Source: Candidatus Sulfopaludibacter sp. SbA3
GTDB taxonomy: Bacteria > Acidobacteriota > Terriglobia > 20CM-2-55-15
NCBI GenBank assembly: GCA_945865815.1
Contig: CAMBFR010000014.1
Coordinates: 1-53,529, forward strand
Direction of reading: 5' to 3'
Length of the DNA stretch: 53,529 nucleotides
Shown one piece after another: positions 8,285-53,012 of the stretch (positions are counted from its first letter, which is position 1; the number at the start of each line of letters is the position of its first letter). A program made the position numbers and the translations under genes. The notes under the pieces were generated by a model. The model saw only the letters and a list, made by a program, of their open reading frames with translations. It was not told where the DNA came from and searched no databases.

Positions 8285-9064
8285 CTAGATGGTCTTCGTC
8301 GATCCTCCGTCCATATCGATCAATGCTCCCTGCAAAAACCTGCCTTCGGGCCCGACTATGAAGGCCGCGAGGCCGGCGATGTCTTCCGGCTCGCCGATTC
8401 GGGTGATGGTGGGACTGCGAACGATTTCCTTCTCTGCCTCCGGCAAGTCGATCCCCTTCTGCTTCATGATTTCTGCCAGGCGCACCTGAAGCCTGCCGGT
8501 GCGAACCGTGCCGGGATTGATCGTATTGACCTGAACTCCGTCGCGAATGCCAAGATCGGCGAGCGCCTTGGTTAATGAGAGCAGGGCGGCATTGACGGAG
8601 CCGCCGATCGTGAACGCGGCGCCGGGCGTCCGGCCACCGGCGCCGGAAATGTTCAGCACGGATCCGGAGCTTGCCTTGAGTGCCGGCCATGCGGCGCGGA
8701 TCAGCCGGACGGCGCCAAAGAATTTCAGGGCAAAGCCGTCGGCCCAGTCGTCGTCGGTCAACTGCTCGAACTCGCCCCGCTTCGTGGCGCCAGCATTGTT
8801 CACGACAATGTCGATGCGGTCGTAAGTCTTCAATGCAAACTCCGCCAGGCGGGCTGGCGCGCCGGGCAGCCGCAGGTCGAGCGCTATGGCGGAGGCCCGG
8901 CCATCTTTGGCCTCAATTTCGCGCACAACCTGATCGAGCGCCGTTTCGGTCCGGGCGCACAGGACGACGCTCGCGCCTTCGCTTGCCAGACGCTGGGCGA
9001 TCGCGCACCCGATCCCCTTGCTGGAGCCCGAGACAATAGCTACTTTTCCTTTCAGTTTTTGCAT
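8285..9064 (-). CDS. SDR-family protein with substituted catalytic tetrad
   Basis: Start placed at 9064 (MQKLKGKVAIVSG) because the longer frame adds 24 residues with no family similarity. The Rossmann dinucleotide motif is present (SGSSKGIG), as are NNAG near 90 and the typical C-terminal NxINPGTVRT loop and GG end. The catalytic positions are abnormal: where classical SDRs have YxxxKAAL this protein has GGSVNAAL, so Tyr and Lys are Gly and Asn, and the usual helix-4 Asn is Lys (FALKFFG). Known divergent SDR subfamilies look like this. It may bind NAD(P) without standard oxidoreductase chemistry. It is divergent from the small gene starting at 9105, 40 bp apart, and convergent with lhr. Confidence 0.8.
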   Translation of the reverse strand: MQKLKGKVAIVSGSSKGIGCAIAQRLASEGASVVLCARTETALDQVVREIEAKDGRASAIALDLRLPGAPARLAEFALKTYDRIDIVVNNAGATKRGEFEQLTDDDWADGFALKFFGAVRLIRAAWPALKASSGSVLNISGAGGRTPGAAFTIGGSVNAALLSLTKALADLGIRDGVQVNTINPGTVRTGRLQVRLAEIMKQKGIDLPEAEKEIVRSPTITRIGEPEDIAGLAAFIVGPEGRFLQGALIDMDGGSTKTI

Positions 9065-9104
9065 GGGCGGAAGCGTACAAGAATTGGGTAAACTCTGGAA
9101 GCAA

Positions 9105-9416
9105 ATGCCTACGTACACGGGTCCGATCGACGACACACGGGAGCTGATTCAATTCTTTCGCAATGAGGCGGCGAAACTGCGCAATTTGCGCAAGCTTGTC
9201 ATCTCGCGTGAAAAAACCGTCGTGCAGGATATCAATGGCGAGGCCATCGAATTCCCGGGCTTAACCTACGGCTCCAGGACCCTGGAAGATCTGCTACGGG
9301 ATGTGGGCGTCATCTTCACTCCCGAGACCCTGCACAACCCCAACGCCACACGAACGGGCGTGAAAGAGTTCCTGCTCACGAATCGCTGGACGTGGGGCCA
9401 CGACCGCATCCTTTAG
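9105..9416 (+). CDS. conserved-looking hypothetical protein, 103 aa
   Basis: ATG at 9105 is preceded by GGAAG and, 10 nt upstream, by TAAACT. The product (begins MPTYTGPIDD, ends TWGHDRIL) is soluble, charged, without signal peptide or membrane segment, and not recognised. It contains a helical N-terminal half rich in Arg, Leu and Glu (residues 12-35) and a more mixed C-terminal half. It is divergent from the SDR gene with only 40 bp between the starts, so the two may share a regulatory region. Codon bias matches its neighbours, which supports a real gene. Confidence 0.55.
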   Translation: MPTYTGPIDDTRELIQFFRNEAAKLRNLRKLVISREKTVVQDINGEAIEFPGLTYGSRTLEDLLRDVGVIFTPETLHNPNATRTGVKEFLLTNRWTWGHDRIL

Positions 9417-9429
9417 ATTCGGGGAGAAA

Positions 9430-9458
9430 TTGGTAGACCGGATGCCTTGGAGTATACT
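9430..9458 (+). promoter_or_regulatory. putative sigma70-type promoter
   Basis: TTGGTA (9430-9435), a 17-bp spacer, and TATACT (9453-9458). It lies upstream of the secreted lectin-like gene, which starts at 9527 behind a GAGGAGA ribosome-binding site, giving a leader of about 60 nt. Confidence 0.5.
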
Positions 9459-9526
9459 AACGCCCTCAAAAAGACCACGACGACGGTCGGGGTCGTGATC
9501 CGAAAACCTACTCGAGAGGAGAATCG

Positions 9527-10219
9527 ATGAAGAAGATTGTAACTGTCAGTGCCGCAACAACGCTGTTGCTGTTGGGCACGTTCATGCTTTTCGCGCAACA
9601 GGGCGGCGGCGGCCAGGCTCCAGCAGCGCCTCCAGAGCCGATGAGATTTTTTGTTACCAGTGCGGGCAAGGGCGATGGAGCCAACCTCGGTGGTCTGGCA
9701 GGAGCCGACGCGCATTGCCAGGCGTTAGCTCAGGCTGCCGGAGCCGGCAACCGCACGTGGCGCGCGTATCTGAGCACCACGGCTGCAGGCAATCAGCCGG
9801 CAGTCAACGCGCGTGACCGAATCGGAACGGGACCCTGGCACAATGCGCGTGGCGCCTTGATTGCCACCAACGTTGCCGATCTGCATGGAGACGTTCAGCG
9901 CGACCGTAACAATGTCCGGAAGCCCACAGCGCTTTCCGAAAAGGCCGCGATGATCAATGGCGTAGGCGACATGCCGAACCAACATGACATGCTGACGGGT
10001 TCGGACTCCACCGGCCGGTCACTGCCCGGCGACGCCGCAATGACAACCTGCGGCAACTACACCAGCAACAACATGGGCAGCGTTATGCTGGGCCATCATG
10101 ACCGTCTTGGCGGCGGAAACGTTTCATGGAACGCCACGCATGCAAGCCGCGGCTGCAGCCAGGCGAACCTGGTTCAGACCGGCGGCGCCGGCATGTTCTA
10201 CTGCTTCGCTACCAACTAA
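9527..10219 (+). CDS. secreted lectin-like protein (DUF1554-like)
   Basis: A 230-residue exported protein: signal peptide (residues 1-25, ending before GGGGQAPAAPP), a short Pro/Ala/Gly linker, then one globular domain. The domain opens with FFVTSAGKGDGANLGGLAGA and DAHCQALA, a pattern I associate with DUF1554 and related C-type-lectin-fold adhesin domains, and holds four cysteines (in DAHCQA, TTCGNY, SRGCSQ and MFYCF) that could form two disulfides after export. Function is unknown; extracellular carbohydrate or surface binding is an inference. The start is well supported by GAGGAGA 5 nt upstream and by a promoter at 9430-9458. A family A palindrome follows the gene. Confidence 0.65.
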   Translation: MKKIVTVSAATTLLLLGTFMLFAQQGGGGQAPAAPPEPMRFFVTSAGKGDGANLGGLAGADAHCQALAQAAGAGNRTWRAYLSTTAAGNQPAVNARDRIGTGPWHNARGALIATNVADLHGDVQRDRNNVRKPTALSEKAAMINGVGDMPNQHDMLTGSDSTGRSLPGDAAMTTCGNYTSNNMGSVMLGHHDRLGGGNVSWNATHASRGCSQANLVQTGGAGMFYCFATN

Positions 10220-10232
10220 GCACCGTCTGATC

Positions 10233-10302
10233 GGAGATCTGGGGACAGACTCCGAATTGCTCTGAAGTACAAGAGCAATTCGGAGTCTGTCCCCGGATCT
10301 CC
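10233..10302. repeat. palindrome family A, copy 3
   Basis: Arms of 31 bp (10233-10263 and 10272-10302) with a single mismatch and an 8-bp loop. The arm includes GGGGACAGACTCCGAATT, identical to copy 4. It lies after the lectin-like gene and before the DUF4159 gene and could also act as a transcription block, though there is no T tract. Confidence 0.88.
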
Positions 10303-10356
10303 CTCTCCCCCGTCTAAAATATCCACGACTTCCGATAACGTTTCATCAATTAGCGG

Positions 10357-10362
10357 TATATT
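10357..10362 (+). promoter_or_regulatory. putative -10 box for a leaderless DUF4159 mRNA
   Basis: TATATT followed by 9 nt and the ATG at 10372; no Shine-Dalgarno sequence is present between them. Confidence 0.4.
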
Positions 10363-10371
10363 GAACGGCGC

Positions 10372-11130
10372 ATGCGCAAGATCCTGTGGATTGCGGCAAT
10401 GGTCCTGGTTCTCAGTCCTTTCGTCCAATGGGCGCAAGACTGGCCGTTTCGCGAAGGACGCGACGAGCCTGTGCCCGAGTTTGTCTTCGCCCGGCTGATT
10501 TACTCCGGCCGGTTTGGCGGATTCGGAAGGGATTGGGCAACAGATTATCCGGCGGCGGATCGCAAATTCATGTGGGGCGTTCAACGCCTGACGAACATCC
10601 GAATCCGGATCGAGGAAAATGCCATCCGCATCATGGACCCGAACTTGTTCAAGTATCCCTTTCTCTATGTAGTCGAACCCGGGCGCGGTTTGGTCCTGAG
10701 CGATGTCGAAGCGAAACGGCTGCGGGAATACGTCGATCGTGGCGGATTCATGATTTTCGACGACTTCTGGGGAACGGCTCAATGGAGAAACTTCACGAAT
10801 CAGATGCGAAAGGTTTTTCCGGACCGCGAGATCGAGCCGATCCCCAGGGACCACGAAATCTTCCACACCTTCTACGATATCGACTCGTTCATACAGGTTC
10901 CAAATGTCGGCAACGGCATTCGTGGCGGACCAACCTGGCAGTCCGACGGATACGTTCCCCAATTGTTGGGAATCTTCGACGAGAAGCGCCGCCTCAACGT
11001 CGCCATGAGCTTCAACAGCGATCTCGGCGATGCCTGGGAGTGGATGGATCACCCTCAGTATCCTGAAAAGTACTCCGGTTACGCCTACCGGATCGGCGTC
11101 AACTTCATTATCTATGCTATGACTCACTGA
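10372..11130 (+). CDS. secreted DUF4159 domain protein
   Basis: A 252-residue protein with an N-terminal signal (IAAMVLVLSPFVQWAQ) and a single DUF4159 domain: EFVFARLIYSGRFGGFG at the start, LFKYPFLYVVEP in the middle, then LREYVDRGGFMIFDD and a C-terminal NFIIYAMTH. DUF4159 has a class-I glutamine-amidotransferase-like/Rossmann appearance, but its activity is unknown. A second member at 33262-34026 has the same architecture. The gene lies 10 bp upstream of the IMPase-like gene, so the two are probably co-transcribed. The start lacks a ribosome-binding site. Confidence 0.8.
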   Translation: MRKILWIAAMVLVLSPFVQWAQDWPFREGRDEPVPEFVFARLIYSGRFGGFGRDWATDYPAADRKFMWGVQRLTNIRIRIEENAIRIMDPNLFKYPFLYVVEPGRGLVLSDVEAKRLREYVDRGGFMIFDDFWGTAQWRNFTNQMRKVFPDREIEPIPRDHEIFHTFYDIDSFIQVPNVGNGIRGGPTWQSDGYVPQLLGIFDEKRRLNVAMSFNSDLGDAWEWMDHPQYPEKYSGYAYRIGVNFIIYAMTH

Positions 11131-11140
11131 TAAACAAAAC

Positions 11141-11968
11141 ATGATTGAGAGTACGGATATCAACGCCGCCCTTGAAGTCGCCGTCCGGGCGGCGCGCAAG
11201 GGCGGCGAGATCGCGAAAGCACGCCTCGGAAAGCCGGGGTACTTGAAGTGGAAGGGACACCGCGACGTGGTCTGCGAAGCATCGTTGCTCGTGCAGGACG
11301 CGATCGTCGCGTCAATTCTGGCGGAATTTCCGGGTGCGGCAATCCTTGCGGAAGAAGGCCCCGACGATGCACCGATGCCGGTGGATGCGCCGGACCTGTG
11401 GATCGTCGATGCGATCTGCGGAAGCCTCAATTTCACCCAGGGTATTCCTTACTTTTGCGTATCCGTCGCGCTGCGGACAGAAGGCAACATCTCGGTAGGG
11501 GTGGTCTATGACCCATGCCGCGACGAAATGTTTGAAGCGACCATTCACACTCCAGCCACACTCAACGGCCAAAGGATTTCCGTTCAGCAGATACTCGAAG
11601 GCGCCGAAGCCTGGAACAGCGCGATCACCGGCACGGACTGGCCGCCGAGCGGTGACCGGCGCAGGCTCACAAGAATGATCGTGGGCCTCATGTCGGATCA
11701 GGTCGTCGCACTCAACCTGATGGGATCGCCGGCGCTGGGCCTGTGCAATGTGGCATGCGGCAGGCTCCACGCCTACTGGCACCTCGATTTGAATATCTGG
11801 GACATTGCCGCCGCTAGCCTGATCCTGCAGCGGGCCGGAGGAATTCTTACCGACGCGAACGGCGTGACGTGGCTTTATTCCGATGGAGGATACATTGCGA
11901 CGAACGGCGTGATTCACGGCTGGACGTTGAACTGTATTCAGGCGGTGCTGAACCTCTCCAAAAAATGA
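11141..11968 (+). CDS. inositol-monophosphatase-like protein with missing metal ligands
   Basis: A 275-residue cytoplasmic protein of the IMPase/FBPase/SuhB/CysQ superfamily, which normally hydrolyses phosphate esters with two or three Mg ions. Conserved parts: LAEEG (Glu71/72), WIVDAICGSLNF (residues 87-98) and WDIAAA with Asp221. The canonical DPxDGT metal motif reads DAICGS here, so the second Asp is Cys93, and the first-strand Asp (usual TEAD) is Ser48. At least two Mg ligands are therefore missing, which suggests altered or lost catalysis. It directly follows the DUF4159 gene and probably shares its mRNA. The start at 11141 is the only sensible one but has a weak ribosome-binding site. 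Confidence 0.85.
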   Translation: MIESTDINAALEVAVRAARKGGEIAKARLGKPGYLKWKGHRDVVCEASLLVQDAIVASILAEFPGAAILAEEGPDDAPMPVDAPDLWIVDAICGSLNFTQGIPYFCVSVALRTEGNISVGVVYDPCRDEMFEATIHTPATLNGQRISVQQILEGAEAWNSAITGTDWPPSGDRRRLTRMIVGLMSDQVVALNLMGSPALGLCNVACGRLHAYWHLDLNIWDIAAASLILQRAGGILTDANGVTWLYSDGGYIATNGVIHGWTLNCIQAVLNLSKK

Positions 11969-11972
11969 AAAT

Positions 11973-12037
11973 TGAGAATTGAATAATGAATAATGAGTAT
12001 TGACATTCAATAATCACTATTCATTATTCAATTCTCA
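11973..12037. repeat. AT-rich inverted repeat (family D)
   Basis: Arms of 31 bp (11973-12003 and 12007-12037) with two mismatches around a 3-bp centre, composed of repeated GAATAATGAATAATGA-like units. It is far more A+T-rich than the rest of the window and fills the gap between two convergent stop codons (11968 and 12045), so it may serve both genes as a transcription end. Confidence 0.8.
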
Positions 12038-12044
12038 TTTGTCA

Positions 12045-13088
12045 TCACCTCGCGAGAGCTACGCCAGCAAGTTCTCCGAGGCCGCCGAGAGTCGTCTGGG
12101 CGGCATTGAAGCCGAGGCGAAAGGCGTCTTCTCCGTAAGTTTCGTATTTATCCGTTGGCTGATGATGGTTTGGATTTGATCCCCTGACAATGCCGGTGAC
12201 CCTTTCATTTTCGCGGACGCTGACCGAGGGCACTAGATCCTGAAACCGTATCGAATCCGTGCCTGCCATATTGGCGCCGATTGTTGCAGGATATTGCCCG
12301 GCGTGGGACCGGTTTGCGGCGTGCAGTAAGGCTGCCAGCCTCTCGGAGCCGGCTGCCATTCTGGAATTTCTCTGATACTCAATATTGATGTCGGCATTGG
12401 GACTCTGTCTCGGCCCGGGAGGCATGCCATGGTCGAACATCATCATGTCGTGCTGGATGACGCCCAGCCACTTCGGTTCGGCCGCCGAGCCCTGGAGCGG
12501 CGCCCTTTCGAGGGCATAGGTCCCACTGCCGTCCATCCCGAACTCCTCGTTGTTCCAGAAAATGAACCTCACCGAGCGGTTCGTCCGGACGTCGGCCATT
12601 CCTAAAACGCGGGCCAATTCGAGCACCACCGCGCAGCCGGAGCCGTCATCGTCGGCGGCCTCACCACCGCCGCGGCCGTCCATGTGCGCCGAGACGATGT
12701 ACATCTCTCCCGGCGTGGTCGTACCGATCTTTGTAGCGTAGATGTTCTCGAGAGGGCCGCTGGCCGACATGAACCGATGCCGCACGACGTTGGTGTACCC
12801 GAAGCTCCGCAGTTGTCTCTCGAGCCAGTCGATAGCGTCACGGTTGCGTTCGGTTCCCTGCATTCGATCGCCGAACTGGGTGAGTCCTTTGATGTGCGCC
12901 TTGTATCGTTCCAGTTCAAGTCGTCCGACGACAGTGCGCGCAGCATCTGAAGGCGTGCTCGTTGTCTGCGCCGAAAGCAAAGCCGCGAAAAGCAATATTC
13001 CTGGCAGGAATCGGGTGACAATTCTGGGGACAGACTCCGAATTCCTGTGGTACAGAATTCGGAGTCTGTCCCCAGAATTGTCATTCAT
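12045..13088 (-). CDS. M28-family zinc peptidase; N-terminus formed by a palindrome
   Basis: An M28 aminopeptidase-like protein with zinc-site segments SAHMDGRG, DDDGSG and WNNEEFG, plus a signal-type segment (FLPGILLFAALLSA) at residues 27-40. The only ATG in frame is at 13088 and forms TAATG with the stop of the FAD-subunit gene, a typical coupling. The first 23 codons lie inside a perfect palindrome (13016-13083), so the predicted N-terminus (MNDNSGDRLR...) is repeat-derived and places 26 polar residues before the hydrophobic segment. Either the repeat inserted after the start codon and stayed in frame, or translation begins inside or after it at a non-ATG codon. It is the last gene of the molybdenum-enzyme operon. 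Confidence 0.85.
   Translation of the reverse strand: MNDNSGDRLRILYHRNSESVPRIVTRFLPGILLFAALLSAQTTSTPSDAARTVVGRLELERYKAHIKGLTQFGDRMQGTERNRDAIDWLERQLRSFGYTNVVRHRFMSASGPLENIYATKIGTTTPGEMYIVSAHMDGRGGGEAADDDGSGCAVVLELARVLGMADVRTNRSVRFIFWNNEEFGMDGSGTYALERAPLQGSAAEPKWLGVIQHDMMMFDHGMPPGPRQSPNADINIEYQRNSRMAAGSERLAALLHAANRSHAGQYPATIGANMAGTDSIRFQDLVPSVSVRENERVTGIVRGSNPNHHQPTDKYETYGEDAFRLGFNAAQTTLGGLGELAGVALAR
13016..13083. repeat. palindrome family A, copy 4, inside the M28 coding start
   Basis: Perfect 29-bp inverted repeat (13016-13044 and 13055-13083) with a 10-bp loop. It shares GGGGACAGACTCCGAATT with copy 3 and overlaps codons 2-25 of the M28 peptidase frame without breaking it. Confidence 0.9.
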
Positions 13089-14080
13089 TACGCGAGGCCC
13101 TGCAAAATCGTCCGCTCCACCAGGTTCTGCGCGATATCGACCTTGTAGGCGTTCATGCTCATCGGGCGCGCCACGGTGCGGATGATCGCCGCGGCCTGCT
13201 TGATGCTTGTCTTGATGTTCTTTCCCTTGAGCTGGTTCTCGATGGCCGTGGCCCGGTAAGGAACCGGCGCAACGCCGCCCAGCACGATGCGCCCGTCTTG
13301 CCAGACATCGCCCGCGGCCGTGAACGCGGCCGCGACGGAAATCAGCGCAAAGTCGTAAACCTCGCGGTTCTTCAGTTTCAGCCAGGTCTGCTTCGTGCCC
13401 GCCGCCGGGTTCGGGATGAACACCTCGACCAGGATCTCGTTCGCCTTGAGGACATTTTCGTTGAGGATATTTTCACGGGGACCGACGAAGTAGCTGTCAA
13501 ACGGCACCATCCGCTCGCCCGCAGGCCCCGCGATCTTCGCCTGCGCGTTCAGAGCCAGCAGAGCGGCGGCCGTGTCCGACGGATGCACGATGTAGCACAG
13601 CTCGCCGCCGATAATGGCGTGATAGCGGTTGTCGCCGCCAACCGAGAAACAGAAATCGCCGCCCTTCTTATAGCAGTCGAAATCCGGTCCGCGCAGGAAC
13701 CAGCAACGCGGCCTCTGGTTGATATTGCCTCCAAGGGTCGCGTAATTCCGAATCAGGGGAGATGCCACGCTGTGCGCGGCCTGCGCGAGAAGCGGCAGCT
13801 TCCCGGTGACTTCCTTCGATTCAAAAATCTCGGTCAGGGTGGTGTTGGCGCCGATGGTTATGCCGGCGGCCGCGGCCCGAATGCCCTTGAGCTGCGGAAT
13901 CGTTGTGATATCCACGAGCGCGGTGGGTATCGGCATGCCGCTGCCTTCGACCCAGTCTTTCATCACGCCCGAGACAAGATCGCTGCCGCCCGCCAGAACT
14001 TTCGCGTTGGGGCCAATCCTGGTCAGAGTATCGACTGCTTCTTTTACCGTTTTGGGTTCGTGGAGTTCAAAGCCCTTCAT
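13088..14080 (-). CDS. molybdenum hydroxylase FAD-binding subunit (CoxM/XdhB/PaoB-like)
   Basis: The medium FAD subunit of a three-part xanthine-dehydrogenase-family enzyme. Start set at 14080 (MKGFELHEPKTVKEAVDTL) behind GAGGT. It shows the vanillyl-alcohol-oxidase-type FAD motif near residue 35 (AKVLAGGSD) and the second motif IRNYATLGGNINQRPRC, which binds FAD and usually the flavin ring. The C-terminal CO-dehydrogenase flavoprotein domain follows. In the complex this subunit passes electrons from the FeS subunit to its acceptor. It carries no signal peptide, as expected if the complex is exported with the Tat-tagged FeS subunit. It lies 5 bp after the Mo subunit and overlaps the M28 start. 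Confidence 0.9.
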   Translation of the reverse strand: MKGFELHEPKTVKEAVDTLTRIGPNAKVLAGGSDLVSGVMKDWVEGSGMPIPTALVDITTIPQLKGIRAAAAGITIGANTTLTEIFESKEVTGKLPLLAQAAHSVASPLIRNYATLGGNINQRPRCWFLRGPDFDCYKKGGDFCFSVGGDNRYHAIIGGELCYIVHPSDTAAALLALNAQAKIAGPAGERMVPFDSYFVGPRENILNENVLKANEILVEVFIPNPAAGTKQTWLKLKNREVYDFALISVAAAFTAAGDVWQDGRIVLGGVAPVPYRATAIENQLKGKNIKTSIKQAAAIIRTVARPMSMNAYKVDIAQNLVERTILQGLA

Positions 14081-14085
14081 GGTTG

Positions 14086-16578
14086 TTACCTCACCCTTCG
14101 GAGTTCTGTCAGAAGTTTTTCGCGCGTTATGGGCATGCTGTCGATCCATACGCCCACGGCGTTGTATACAGCCGCTGCCACAGCCGGCGCGGGCGGACCC
14201 ATTGGAGGTTCGCCGATTCCATGAGCGCCGAACACACCGTACGCCTTTGGCTTTTCCACCAGGACGACATCGATCTGCTCGGGCACATCCTGGATGCTCG
14301 GCGCCCGGTAATCGAGCATGTTCGCATTCAGCGGAAGGCCGGTGGCGTTATCGATCAGTAACTGCTCGTTGAAGACAGCGCCGAGGGCCATGACCACGCC
14401 ACCCTCGATCTGCTGCTCGAGCGCAAACGGATTCAGCGACCTCCCGACGTCGTGCGCCGCCACAAATTTCGTAACCTTGACGGTGCCGGTGCCGGTGTCC
14501 ACCTCCACCTCCGCCGCATGTGAGGCCCAGGCCGTCCGCTCCCAGTCATTGTCCTGCCGATAAATCGCGCGTCCCAGTATCGGAAGACCTGCTGCCTGGA
14601 TAACCGCCTCAAGGCTCAACTTCGTAGCGGGACTTGCTTTCACAAACACTTCGGCGTTCTTGATATCCAGTTGTTCGGGCGTCATCTGGAGATTCTGGTT
14701 TCTGCGGCGGGCGTCGTCTACGAACTTCTGGGCCGCATAAACCAGGATTTGTCTCTTGGCGTCCATGGCCGCCTCGTAGATGCCGCGGCCGCCGGTATTG
14801 GTCTGCCGGCTGCCATTAGTGCCTCCGCAGTCGGTGGTGTTGTCGGTGTCGACGTACAAAGCAATGGTCACCTGGGTCAACGGAACGCCCAGCGCCTCGG
14901 CAGTGATCATCGCCAGTTCGGTCCGCTGTCCGGGCCCGATTTCGGTGCATGCCGATACGCACTGAACGCTGCCGTCGTTGTTCACAATCACCTGTCCGGT
15001 TGCGGGATTCGTTCCGGCGCCGTGGCTGCATGCATGGGCGGCAAGACCGATCCCATGAAAAACTCCCGGGCGCACTTCCCTTGCCCGCGGCGCGTGCCAC
15101 TTTTCCTTCCACCCGATTCGAGTTGCGGCGGAAGTGATGCATTCGCGGATTCCGGAGTTGCTGAACGGCTTCTTCGTCTCCGGGTTCCCTTCTTCATTCA
15201 GGTTCTTAAGGCGGAACTCGACAGGATCCATGCCGACCGCATAAGCCGCTCTCTCCACCATCATCTCGAGCGCGAACGTTCCGTTCGGATGGCTGACACA
15301 GCGATACGGTCCGGATTTGAAGCTGTTCGTCATGACGTCTATGGCGTCCAGCTTCAAATTTGGAATCTTGTACAGCATCTGCATGTTGTACCAGGAGCCG
15401 TTGGCCGCGCCGGCGCGCTGCGCGCCGACGTTGGCGAACACGCGGAACTGTCCGTACTGCATGGTTCCATCGCGATTCACGCCAAGCTTCATTTCATTCC
15501 GGAACTGGGGACGGTGCGTGCGCGTGACGAAGTCTTCCTCACGCGTGTACATGTTCTTGACCGGCCGGCCGGTAACCTTGGCAAGAATGGCCGCGTGCAC
15601 TTCAGACAGATCCACGCCGGAGCGGTATCCATAACCCGACCCCATGTAACCGTTCTGGATGACGCGGACCCGATTTGCCGGAATCTTCAAAGCCTGGGAA
15701 AGGCCGGCGCGCGTGCCATGCGCGTGCTGGTTGGTGTAATAGACGATCAGCCGGTCCACGTCCCAGTACATCAGCGAATTCGTAAGTTCCAGGCACAGAT
15801 GCTGTTCGGTCGGCTTGGTCAGGATCGCGTCGAGGTTGACATCGGCTCGCGCCCCGTCGGGGGTTCCCCGAACCAGCGCAGGCGTCCTCGCGATGATCGT
15901 TCCGTCCTCGCTGTTCTCCCATTGCTTCAGAGCGGAGGGGCTGGCGCCTTCCATCATGTCGAGCACGGCGGGCAATACTTCGTACTCGACCTCGATCAGG
16001 TGCGTGGCTTCGTCCGCAATATGCTCGCTCTCGGCCGCGACGACCGCGATCGGCGATCCGACCTCGAACACTTCCTCATTAAAAAGGAACCGGTCCGGCG
16101 GGCCTCCGCCGAGCTTCACATCCCGGTATTCGGCCGGCAGGTTTCCACGGTGCAGCACCGCCACAACGCCGCGGAGCGCCTGCGCCTTGGCAATGTTCAC
16201 GCTCTTCACCTTCGCATGCGGATGGGGGCTGCGGAGCGTCCGGGTAAAGAGCATCCCGTTCATCCGCATGTTCTGCGTGTACTGGCCGAGGTTCGTAACG
16301 ATGCCCAGGCCGTGCAGCCGCGGAACCTTCTTTCCGATCACTTCGAACGTGTCGGGCCAGACGGGCGTGGCTGCGGATGCCGACTGCGCCGGTATTCCAA
16401 GCTGCGCGGCGTAGGCTTCCATCACCGGAGCCGCCATCTCGTGAAACTCACCCACAAGCTCGCTCCAGACCGGATCGTTGCTGAGCGCGCGCCACTGGGC
16501 GTCGGTCAGACTGGCCGCATACTCTGGATCCTGGACAACCCGAATTGCGTCGACTCTTTGCTCGATGTTTTGCGACAT
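14086..16578 (-). CDS. molybdenum hydroxylase large (molybdopterin-binding) subunit
   Basis: An 830-residue catalytic subunit of the xanthine dehydrogenase/aldehyde oxidase family. The aldehyde oxidase a/b hammerhead domain begins near residue 85 (IGKKVPRLHGLGIVTNLGQYT), followed by the Mo-cofactor domain with GGTNGSRQTNTG and the catalytic Glu in GIGEPPMGPPAPA near the C-terminus. The first 80 residues form a helical extension not typical of PaoC or XdhB. A GAGGT ribosome-binding site lies 7 nt upstream. It follows the FeS gene after 4 bp. The substrate (aldehyde, purine or other N-heterocycle) cannot be told from sequence. No XdhC-type insertion chaperone is in the window. Confidence 0.9.
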   Translation of the reverse strand: MSQNIEQRVDAIRVVQDPEYAASLTDAQWRALSNDPVWSELVGEFHEMAAPVMEAYAAQLGIPAQSASAATPVWPDTFEVIGKKVPRLHGLGIVTNLGQYTQNMRMNGMLFTRTLRSPHPHAKVKSVNIAKAQALRGVVAVLHRGNLPAEYRDVKLGGGPPDRFLFNEEVFEVGSPIAVVAAESEHIADEATHLIEVEYEVLPAVLDMMEGASPSALKQWENSEDGTIIARTPALVRGTPDGARADVNLDAILTKPTEQHLCLELTNSLMYWDVDRLIVYYTNQHAHGTRAGLSQALKIPANRVRVIQNGYMGSGYGYRSGVDLSEVHAAILAKVTGRPVKNMYTREEDFVTRTHRPQFRNEMKLGVNRDGTMQYGQFRVFANVGAQRAGAANGSWYNMQMLYKIPNLKLDAIDVMTNSFKSGPYRCVSHPNGTFALEMMVERAAYAVGMDPVEFRLKNLNEEGNPETKKPFSNSGIRECITSAATRIGWKEKWHAPRAREVRPGVFHGIGLAAHACSHGAGTNPATGQVIVNNDGSVQCVSACTEIGPGQRTELAMITAEALGVPLTQVTIALYVDTDNTTDCGGTNGSRQTNTGGRGIYEAAMDAKRQILVYAAQKFVDDARRRNQNLQMTPEQLDIKNAEVFVKASPATKLSLEAVIQAAGLPILGRAIYRQDNDWERTAWASHAAEVEVDTGTGTVKVTKFVAAHDVGRSLNPFALEQQIEGGVVMALGAVFNEQLLIDNATGLPLNANMLDYRAPSIQDVPEQIDVVLVEKPKAYGVFGAHGIGEPPMGPPAPAVAAAVYNAVGVWIDSMPITREKLLTELRRVR

Positions 16579-24526: not shown

Positions 24527-24556
24527 GTAGGCCTTCCCTCCTGAACAGGGGGGAAT

Positions 24557-24689
24557 TTTGAAATTGGACGAATCCTGCACCTCAGATCCGAAATCCGAAA
24601 TATCAGATTGGACCAGGCAGGAAGGATCGCCAGTCCAATTCAAGATTTCGGATTTCGGATCTGAGGTGCAGGATTCGTCCAATTTCAAA
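24557..24689. repeat. long perfect inverted repeat (family E, 45-bp arms)
   Basis: Arms 24557-24601 and 24645-24689 are exact reverse complements over 45 bp, with a 43-bp centre in which GATTGGAC and GTCCAATT can pair further. The arms contain the tandem ATCCGAAATCCGAAAT. It lies in the 245-bp gap between the methyltransferase and MBL genes, which holds nothing else except the downstream ribosome-binding site. Confidence 0.9.
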
Positions 24690-24771
24690 GTGTCTCCCAT
24701 ACCCGCACGTTGACACGCCATCGGGCAACACATACGATGACGGCTTCACTTACAAGCAAATGGAGGATCTG

Positions 24772-26968: not shown

Positions 26969-27117
26969 AATTCCCCTCCTGTTTTAGGAGGGGTGGCGCG
27001 ACAGCCAGCGGGCTGGCGCGCCGGGGTGGTATTGAAGGTCCAAAGAATCCTTCGATCTTTTTACCACCCCGCACTCGCTGTCGCTCGGGCTTCCCCTCCT
27101 AAAACAGGAGGGGAATT
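26969..27117. repeat. MITE-like composite palindrome family B, copy 1
   Basis: Outer arms of 25 bp (26969-26993 and 27093-27117) are perfect reverse complements, and each arm is itself a hairpin (CCCCTCCT...AGGAGGGG). Inside, CGGGGTGGTA (27022-27031) pairs with TACCACCCCG (27062-27071). The same plan occurs at 47388-47560. It fills the gap between the convergent cytochrome and TonB-receptor-like genes. Confidence 0.88.
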
Positions 27118-34177: not shown

Positions 34178-34263
34178 CTGTGGGCGCGGGGCTTCAGCCC
34201 CGTGCCAAGCTCCATAAAATTCCTGTTTGATCCTGGCACGAGGCTGAAGCCCCGCGCCCACAG
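34178..34263. repeat. palindrome family C, copy 1, abutting a start codon
   Basis: Arms of 30 bp (34178-34207 and 34234-34263), one mismatch, 26-bp centre. Each arm also folds internally (GGGGCTTCAGCCCC in the left one). It ends 3 nt before the GNAT ATG. A shorter relative is at 45458-45491. Confidence 0.88.
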
Positions 34264-52931: not shown

Positions 52932-52932
52932 A

Positions 52933-53012
52933 AATAATTCGGGGTCTGACGGGTGAATTCCCACTTTCCTGGAAGAAAATGGGAATTCACCCGTCAGACC
53001 CCGAATTATTTC
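52933..53012. repeat. palindrome family A, copy 5, at the Doc gene end
   Basis: Perfect 32-bp inverted repeat (52933-52964 and 52981-53012) with a 16-bp loop. Outer ends ATTCGGGGTCTGAC belong to the family, while the inner GGGTGAATTCCCA is unique to this copy. The Doc toxin gene ends inside the right arm. Confidence 0.9.

Follow-up and report, generated by a model that had tools for sequence, protein, structure and literature searches.

The window (the whole stretch of DNA analysed, 53,529 nucleotides) carries on its minus strand a gene for an M28-family metallopeptidase lying directly behind that of a CoxM-like FAD-binding dehydrogenase subunit (Table 1). The M28 product belongs to Pfam Peptidase_M28 (PF04389; E 1.5e-23, 84 bits for a cut-off of 21.3). 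The final A of the coxM stop codon TAA is also the first base of the M28 ATG (TAATG). Between this in-frame ATG and the hydrophobic, signal-like segment of the M28 protein stands a perfect palindrome, as a first-pass annotation had described. Its arms (13016-13044 and 13055-13083) are 29 nt each and 100% complementary, with a 10-nt spacer. On the minus strand, the palindrome is bordered by ATGAA on its 5' side and by CC CGA TTC CTG CCA GGA ATA TTG on its 3' side; in the M28 frame, it starts at the third base of codon 2, ends at the first base of codon 25, and contains no stop. This open frame is less remarkable than it appears, since the arms are stop-free in ~90% of cases in two of the three frames. 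The junction RNA has a predicted fold of -80.4 kcal/mol (z = -9.45), the predicted energy of the stem alone being -56.5 kcal/mol. No RNA family of Rfam matches positions 9000-15000 of the window, and identity with a known RNA family was dropped on this ground.

Table 1. Features of the coxM-M28 junction and its surroundings (positions in the window).
Feature	Position	Strand	Remark
Further copy of the M28-junction palindrome family	10233..10302		
Unrelated AT-rich inverted repeat at the M28 3' end	11965..12045		From the inverted-repeat listing; GC-rich hairpin there in the sister genome
M28-family metallopeptidase ORF, 347 aa	12045..13088	-	Pfam Peptidase_M28; dN/dS 0.097 vs sister
ACC codon where orthologues have the start ATG	13014..13016	-	From the alignment
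25 codons 5' of the first codon common with orthologues, MNDNSGDRLRILYHRNSESVPRIVT, almost all palindrome-encoded	13014..13088	-	Absent from ten orthologous loci
Palindromic repeat, REP/TIR-like element, 68 nt	13016..13083		Perfect 29-nt arms; family of 35 paired copies in the genome
Outer arm, variable yet self-complementary: TGACAATTCT / AGAATTGTCA	13016..13025		Pairs with 13074-13083
Core GGGGACAGACTCCGAATT in arm 1, nearly invariant	13026..13043	+	GGGGWSAS motif present, as in TIRYT terminal repeats (PMC3733652)
Core, inverted second copy, arm 2	13056..13073	-	
Second ATG, out of the M28 frame; possible remnant of the ancestral start	13082..13084	-	ORF 12602-13084
Captured ATG, putative start codon, overlapping the coxM stop TAA (TAATG)	13086..13088	-	In frame
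Upstream CoxM-like FAD-binding dehydrogenase subunit	13088..14080	-	Stop codon 4 nt from the palindrome
AGGG, Shine-Dalgarno-like by sequence	13098..13101	-	9 nt before ATG-13088

The palindrome is of the mobile type, as initially proposed, and belongs to a dispersed family. Its 18-nt core has 42 + 41 = 83 matches (at most two mismatches) in the 4.34-Mb Acidobacteriota genome against 0 + 0 for the reversed control; together with the z-score of the fold, these counts exclude a chance origin. With these core matches and 35 paired copies, the family displays the many dispersed copies of a short palindrome that are expected of REPs. The genome of the sister (G001; Bryobacterales), a MAG bearing the name Candidatus Sulfopaludibacter sp. 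SbA3, has 38 + 46 core matches, several of them at the same sites. The core is nearly invariant across the 35 paired copies (mean consensus 0.99), and the seven outer base pairs vary among them yet stay complementary. At position -1, pairing is kept in 33 of 35 copies with four pair types, against a permutation mean of 12.8 and a permutation maximum of 23. The outer arms also differ between orthologous sites (e.g., L008/L237), again remaining complementary around a core that hardly changes.

Copies lie mostly outside genes, near 3' ends of convergent or tandem genes, as do REPs. Gene calls came from a simple codon-usage caller, crude and with the window as its training set; by these calls, the distance to a stop codon is at most 30 nt for 29 of 34 copies in this genome and for 20 of 23 copies in the sister. 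The neighbours are convergent for 13 of the 34 copies, tandem for 20, and divergent for one; convergent neighbours are thereby enriched relative to other neighbour pairs (6/68, p = 0.0006). The published distribution of REPs shows the same placement, just after stops and between convergent genes (PMC3733652). The M28 copy, 4 nt behind the coxM stop, fits the placement of its family. Other repeats are also present. At L152, another dispersed repeat, approximately GAAAATGGGAAATGACCGGCCGGACCCCGTTTT, stands immediately to the right of the palindrome, from position 1563; it is found in both genomes and on many G001 contigs. The window harbors further long inverted repeats (24548-24698, 52932-53011, 26969-27117, 34178-34263, and 2502-2554), some with GGGGTCTGAC or GGGGACAGG.

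As to the type of element, nearly all arms carry GGGGACAG, which fits GGGGWSAS, the motif of the terminal repeats (TIRs) around TIRYTs, the TIR-associated, IS200-like tyrosine transposases (Di Nocera et al. 2013, PMC3733652). Acidobacteria have a well-defined group of TIRYTs (PMC3733652). Judged by its sequence, the palindrome looks like two TIRYT-like terminal repeats placed head to head, an arrangement that recurs as pairs in this genome. Unlike TIRYT TIRs, however, the exact core GGGGACAGACTCCGAATT was not encountered next to any transposase. The flanks of C55, the one Y1_Tnp gene detected in this genome, are devoid of the repeat, and this gene was rejected as the obvious source of the palindrome. 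In two family relatives, G003 and G009, the transposases have inverted GGGGACAGTCCCCGAACTC and inverted AATTCGGGGACAGACGTATAAATCACC, respectively, on their flanks; these are repeats of the related GGGGACAG type.

Several known systems resemble the M28 case. REPs at ORF N- or C-termini (PMC3733652) likewise follow stops, separate convergent genes, and in some cases encode terminal residues. The unpaired GTAG or CGTC tag that marks one end of REPs was not recognised as a constant feature in the copy listing, in which the ends are variable. A difference is that the sister junction can be aligned here, showing the loss of an ancestral ATG and pointing to the capture of another. Rickettsia palindromic elements (RPEs; PMC2229807), likened here by their published description only, are also palindromic repeats in frame in conserved genes, but they measure 105-146 bp and occur within many ORFs, whereas the present 68-bp element is mostly extragenic and coding only at gene-end overlaps. 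In the mitochondria of Nematomorpha (PMC6649704), perfect palindromes are also found within coding sequences; there, both arms encode conserved protein, whereas here they would encode an added, unconserved tail.

Comparison with ten orthologous loci bears on the origin of the M28 N-terminus. An extension comparable to that of M28 is absent from all ten, and none has an unrelated polar N-terminus of equal length, the observation that the first-pass annotation had named as contrary to its view. In nine orthologues, the aligned position begins with M-R, and the hydrophobic segment comes next; in the tenth (L067), the automated alignment took a later ATG, and a separate comparison reveals an M-R-I-I start. 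Among these loci, some of which are short, coxM was found directly 5' of M28 in the sister only. There, the coxM stop TAG is followed by CCGCGGGC-TTTA-CGCCCGCG, a different small hairpin, then by ATG CGA GTT GTA TCA GGA ATA TTG, the intact ATG being 36 nt behind the stop. The codon preceding CGA is ACC in this genome and ATG in the sister, so that the ancestral M28 start is gone; this comparison, in which the junction is common to one other genome and fixes neither the exact ancestral sequence nor base-level polarity, indicates that the palindrome removed or split it. The 25 codons before CGA are thus new.

The initial proposal, a repeat lying between start codon and signal peptide and creating a new N-terminus, stands as far as the N-terminus is concerned, since this is absent in orthologues. 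The idea that the repeat was simply inserted ahead of the signal peptide, with the start left as it was, was rejected: the orthologues' ATG, which precedes CGA (Arg), aligns with ACC and has been lost, the present start apparently being a captured one. The second ATG, at 13084 and now out of frame, would be accounted for if the palindrome was inserted right after the start in an ancestral TAATGAATG|CGA, as 68 extra bases are not divisible by three. Alternatively, a longer spacer may have been replaced by the palindrome.

Downstream of ATG-13088, the next in-frame ATG of M28 is codon 76, and TTG is found at codons 32 and 37. The original claim that M28 has an only ATG therefore holds for the region before the conserved domain. 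Between the palindrome and codon 76, there is no in-frame ATG or GTG, which makes coding use of the palindrome more likely, though short of proof, than is usual for N-terminal REPs. Such REPs have been published, and many were argued to be extragenic and not translated (PMC3733652).

The favoured reading, to which we give a probability of about 0.7, is that a gene-end palindrome of REP/TIR type took the ancestral M28 start, that the ATG at the coxM stop is now the likely start, and that the hairpin is tolerated. The element, which looks like two inverted TIRYT-like terminal repeats, occupies its usual place a few bases after the coxM stop. Because M28 begins directly behind coxM, it removed or split the ancestral ATG-CGA start, as the comparison with the sister shows. 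The in-frame ATG overlapping the coxM stop would then probably be used through reinitiation or translation coupled to coxM, and the ribosome would read through the hairpin and so extend the protein by ~25 polar residues ahead of the signal-like segment. As for the hairpin, its role is most likely that of a gene-end element, tolerated at this site and not a dedicated M28 switch.

It is unlikely, although the best-placed of the alternatives, that the palindrome is non-coding. In this reading, translation of M28 would begin at a non-ATG codon further on (TTG-32, or ATT or CTG as a rare start), and the hairpin would be a 5' untranslated element. Many N-terminal REPs have been argued to be extragenic for this very reason (PMC3733652). 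An AGGA lies 3 nt upstream of TTG-32, and at sister copy L219, an ORF reads through the palindrome while a good ATG and a signal segment are found behind it. Against this, the M28 region behind the palindrome lacks ATG and GTG up to codon 76, the spacing from AGGA to TTG-32 is short, and a start at TTG-32 would leave out the charged region along with some of the hydrophobic segment. Both TTG-32 and TTG-37 could serve as alternative starts, and both would cut the signal segment.

Somewhat less probable still is a crippled M28, a poorly translated or untranslated early pseudogene, the sole role of the element being to terminate coxM or to stabilise its 3' end. The strength of the predicted stem and the location of the palindrome, which matches that of gene-end hairpins, are consistent with it. 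So is the predicted opening cost at the M28 start, 21.4 kcal/mol, which is the highest of the set (10.0-17.6 kcal/mol at eight orthologous starts) and yet not of another order. On the other hand, the 347-codon frame is intact, and the protein is 93% identical to the sister's. Because the dN/dS of 0.097 between them averages over periods on both sides of the event, a very recent loss of function would escape it. Polarised changes are similar in both lineages, with 19 synonymous and 9 nonsynonymous in this genome vs 22 and 12 in the sister, leaving no nonsynonymous excess here. Given these values, the M28 gene looks constrained, without visible relaxation. A hairpin selected as a regulatory switch coupling M28 translation to that of coxM is the least probable alternative: it could draw on the TAATG overlap and on a stem base only 2 nt from the start codon, where a terminating ribosome would be expected to reach it, but dozens of other palindrome copies lack such a position, the sister keeps the coxM-M28 junction without the repeat, and conservation of the arrangement is not seen. 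Control of translation by the mRNA hairpin, also put forward in the first-pass annotation, found no direct support, the predicted opening cost at the start being of the same order as at the orthologous starts.

Palindromes overlapping gene ends are found elsewhere. On C395 of the sister (L240), a palindrome of the same family lies 6 nt behind the stop of an ankyrin-repeat-like gene, and the next ORF is predicted to begin MEIQNSESVPRLRTVF (MEIQNSESVPR), NSESVPR being palindrome-encoded. The orthologues of this ORF in G004 and G007 begin MAELKLKTVF and MASTIAARRRLKTVF (MASTIAARRRLK...). With its start as predicted, this ORF is a second, independent case of a palindrome-formed N-terminus. In the L240 copy (1502-1563), the loop measures 26 nt and includes the start codon predicted for the gene that follows. 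At C-termini in this genome, alanine racemase (L021, 1494-1522, plus strand) ends ...RGDVGTDSEF inside a palindrome, just before which the sister's enzyme stops, and a pyridoxal-dependent decarboxylase (L025, 1526-1556, minus strand) ends ...GQTPNS in another copy; the last residues and the stop codons of both are supplied by the palindrome. A palindrome used as coding sequence at an operon junction is therefore only partly as unusual as had been claimed, in view of these cases and of the published N-terminal REPs (PMC3733652). Since REPs and Rickettsia palindromic elements are already known at protein N-termini, the M28 case is a clear instance of a described phenomenon.

Gene-end palindromes or hairpins differ between the sister genomes at L002/L262, at L143/L257, and at positions 10233-10302 and 11965-12045 of the window relative to L062, with flanking genes that are ~86-91% identical. 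Gene-end hairpins thus seem to be exchanged between the sister genomes. The flanks of ten copies from this genome (G000) were searched in the sister, and none of the six sites inspected is cleanly empty: unrelated palindromes occupy two of them, and the rest either had an anchor on a single side or reached the end of a contig, so that insert boundaries and target duplication are not fixed from them. It is a doubtful, more far-reaching idea that the palindromes are interchangeable gene-end modules, with a near-invariant 18-nt core and arms that change yet remain complementary, swapped with unrelated hairpins between sister species and rewriting the N- or C-terminus of a neighbour where gaps are short. 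If this were true, the hairpin-coded leader of M28 would alter its export and coupling.

The coxM-M28 junction provides an alignable example of a gene-end palindrome that takes away a start codon in a tightly packed operon, after which the gene would have to use another start. Start codons assigned automatically at REP-bearing junctions consequently need checking. Arms that change while staying complementary, and gene ends whose hairpins differ between genomes, would lend themselves to studies of the evolution of bacterial 3' ends.
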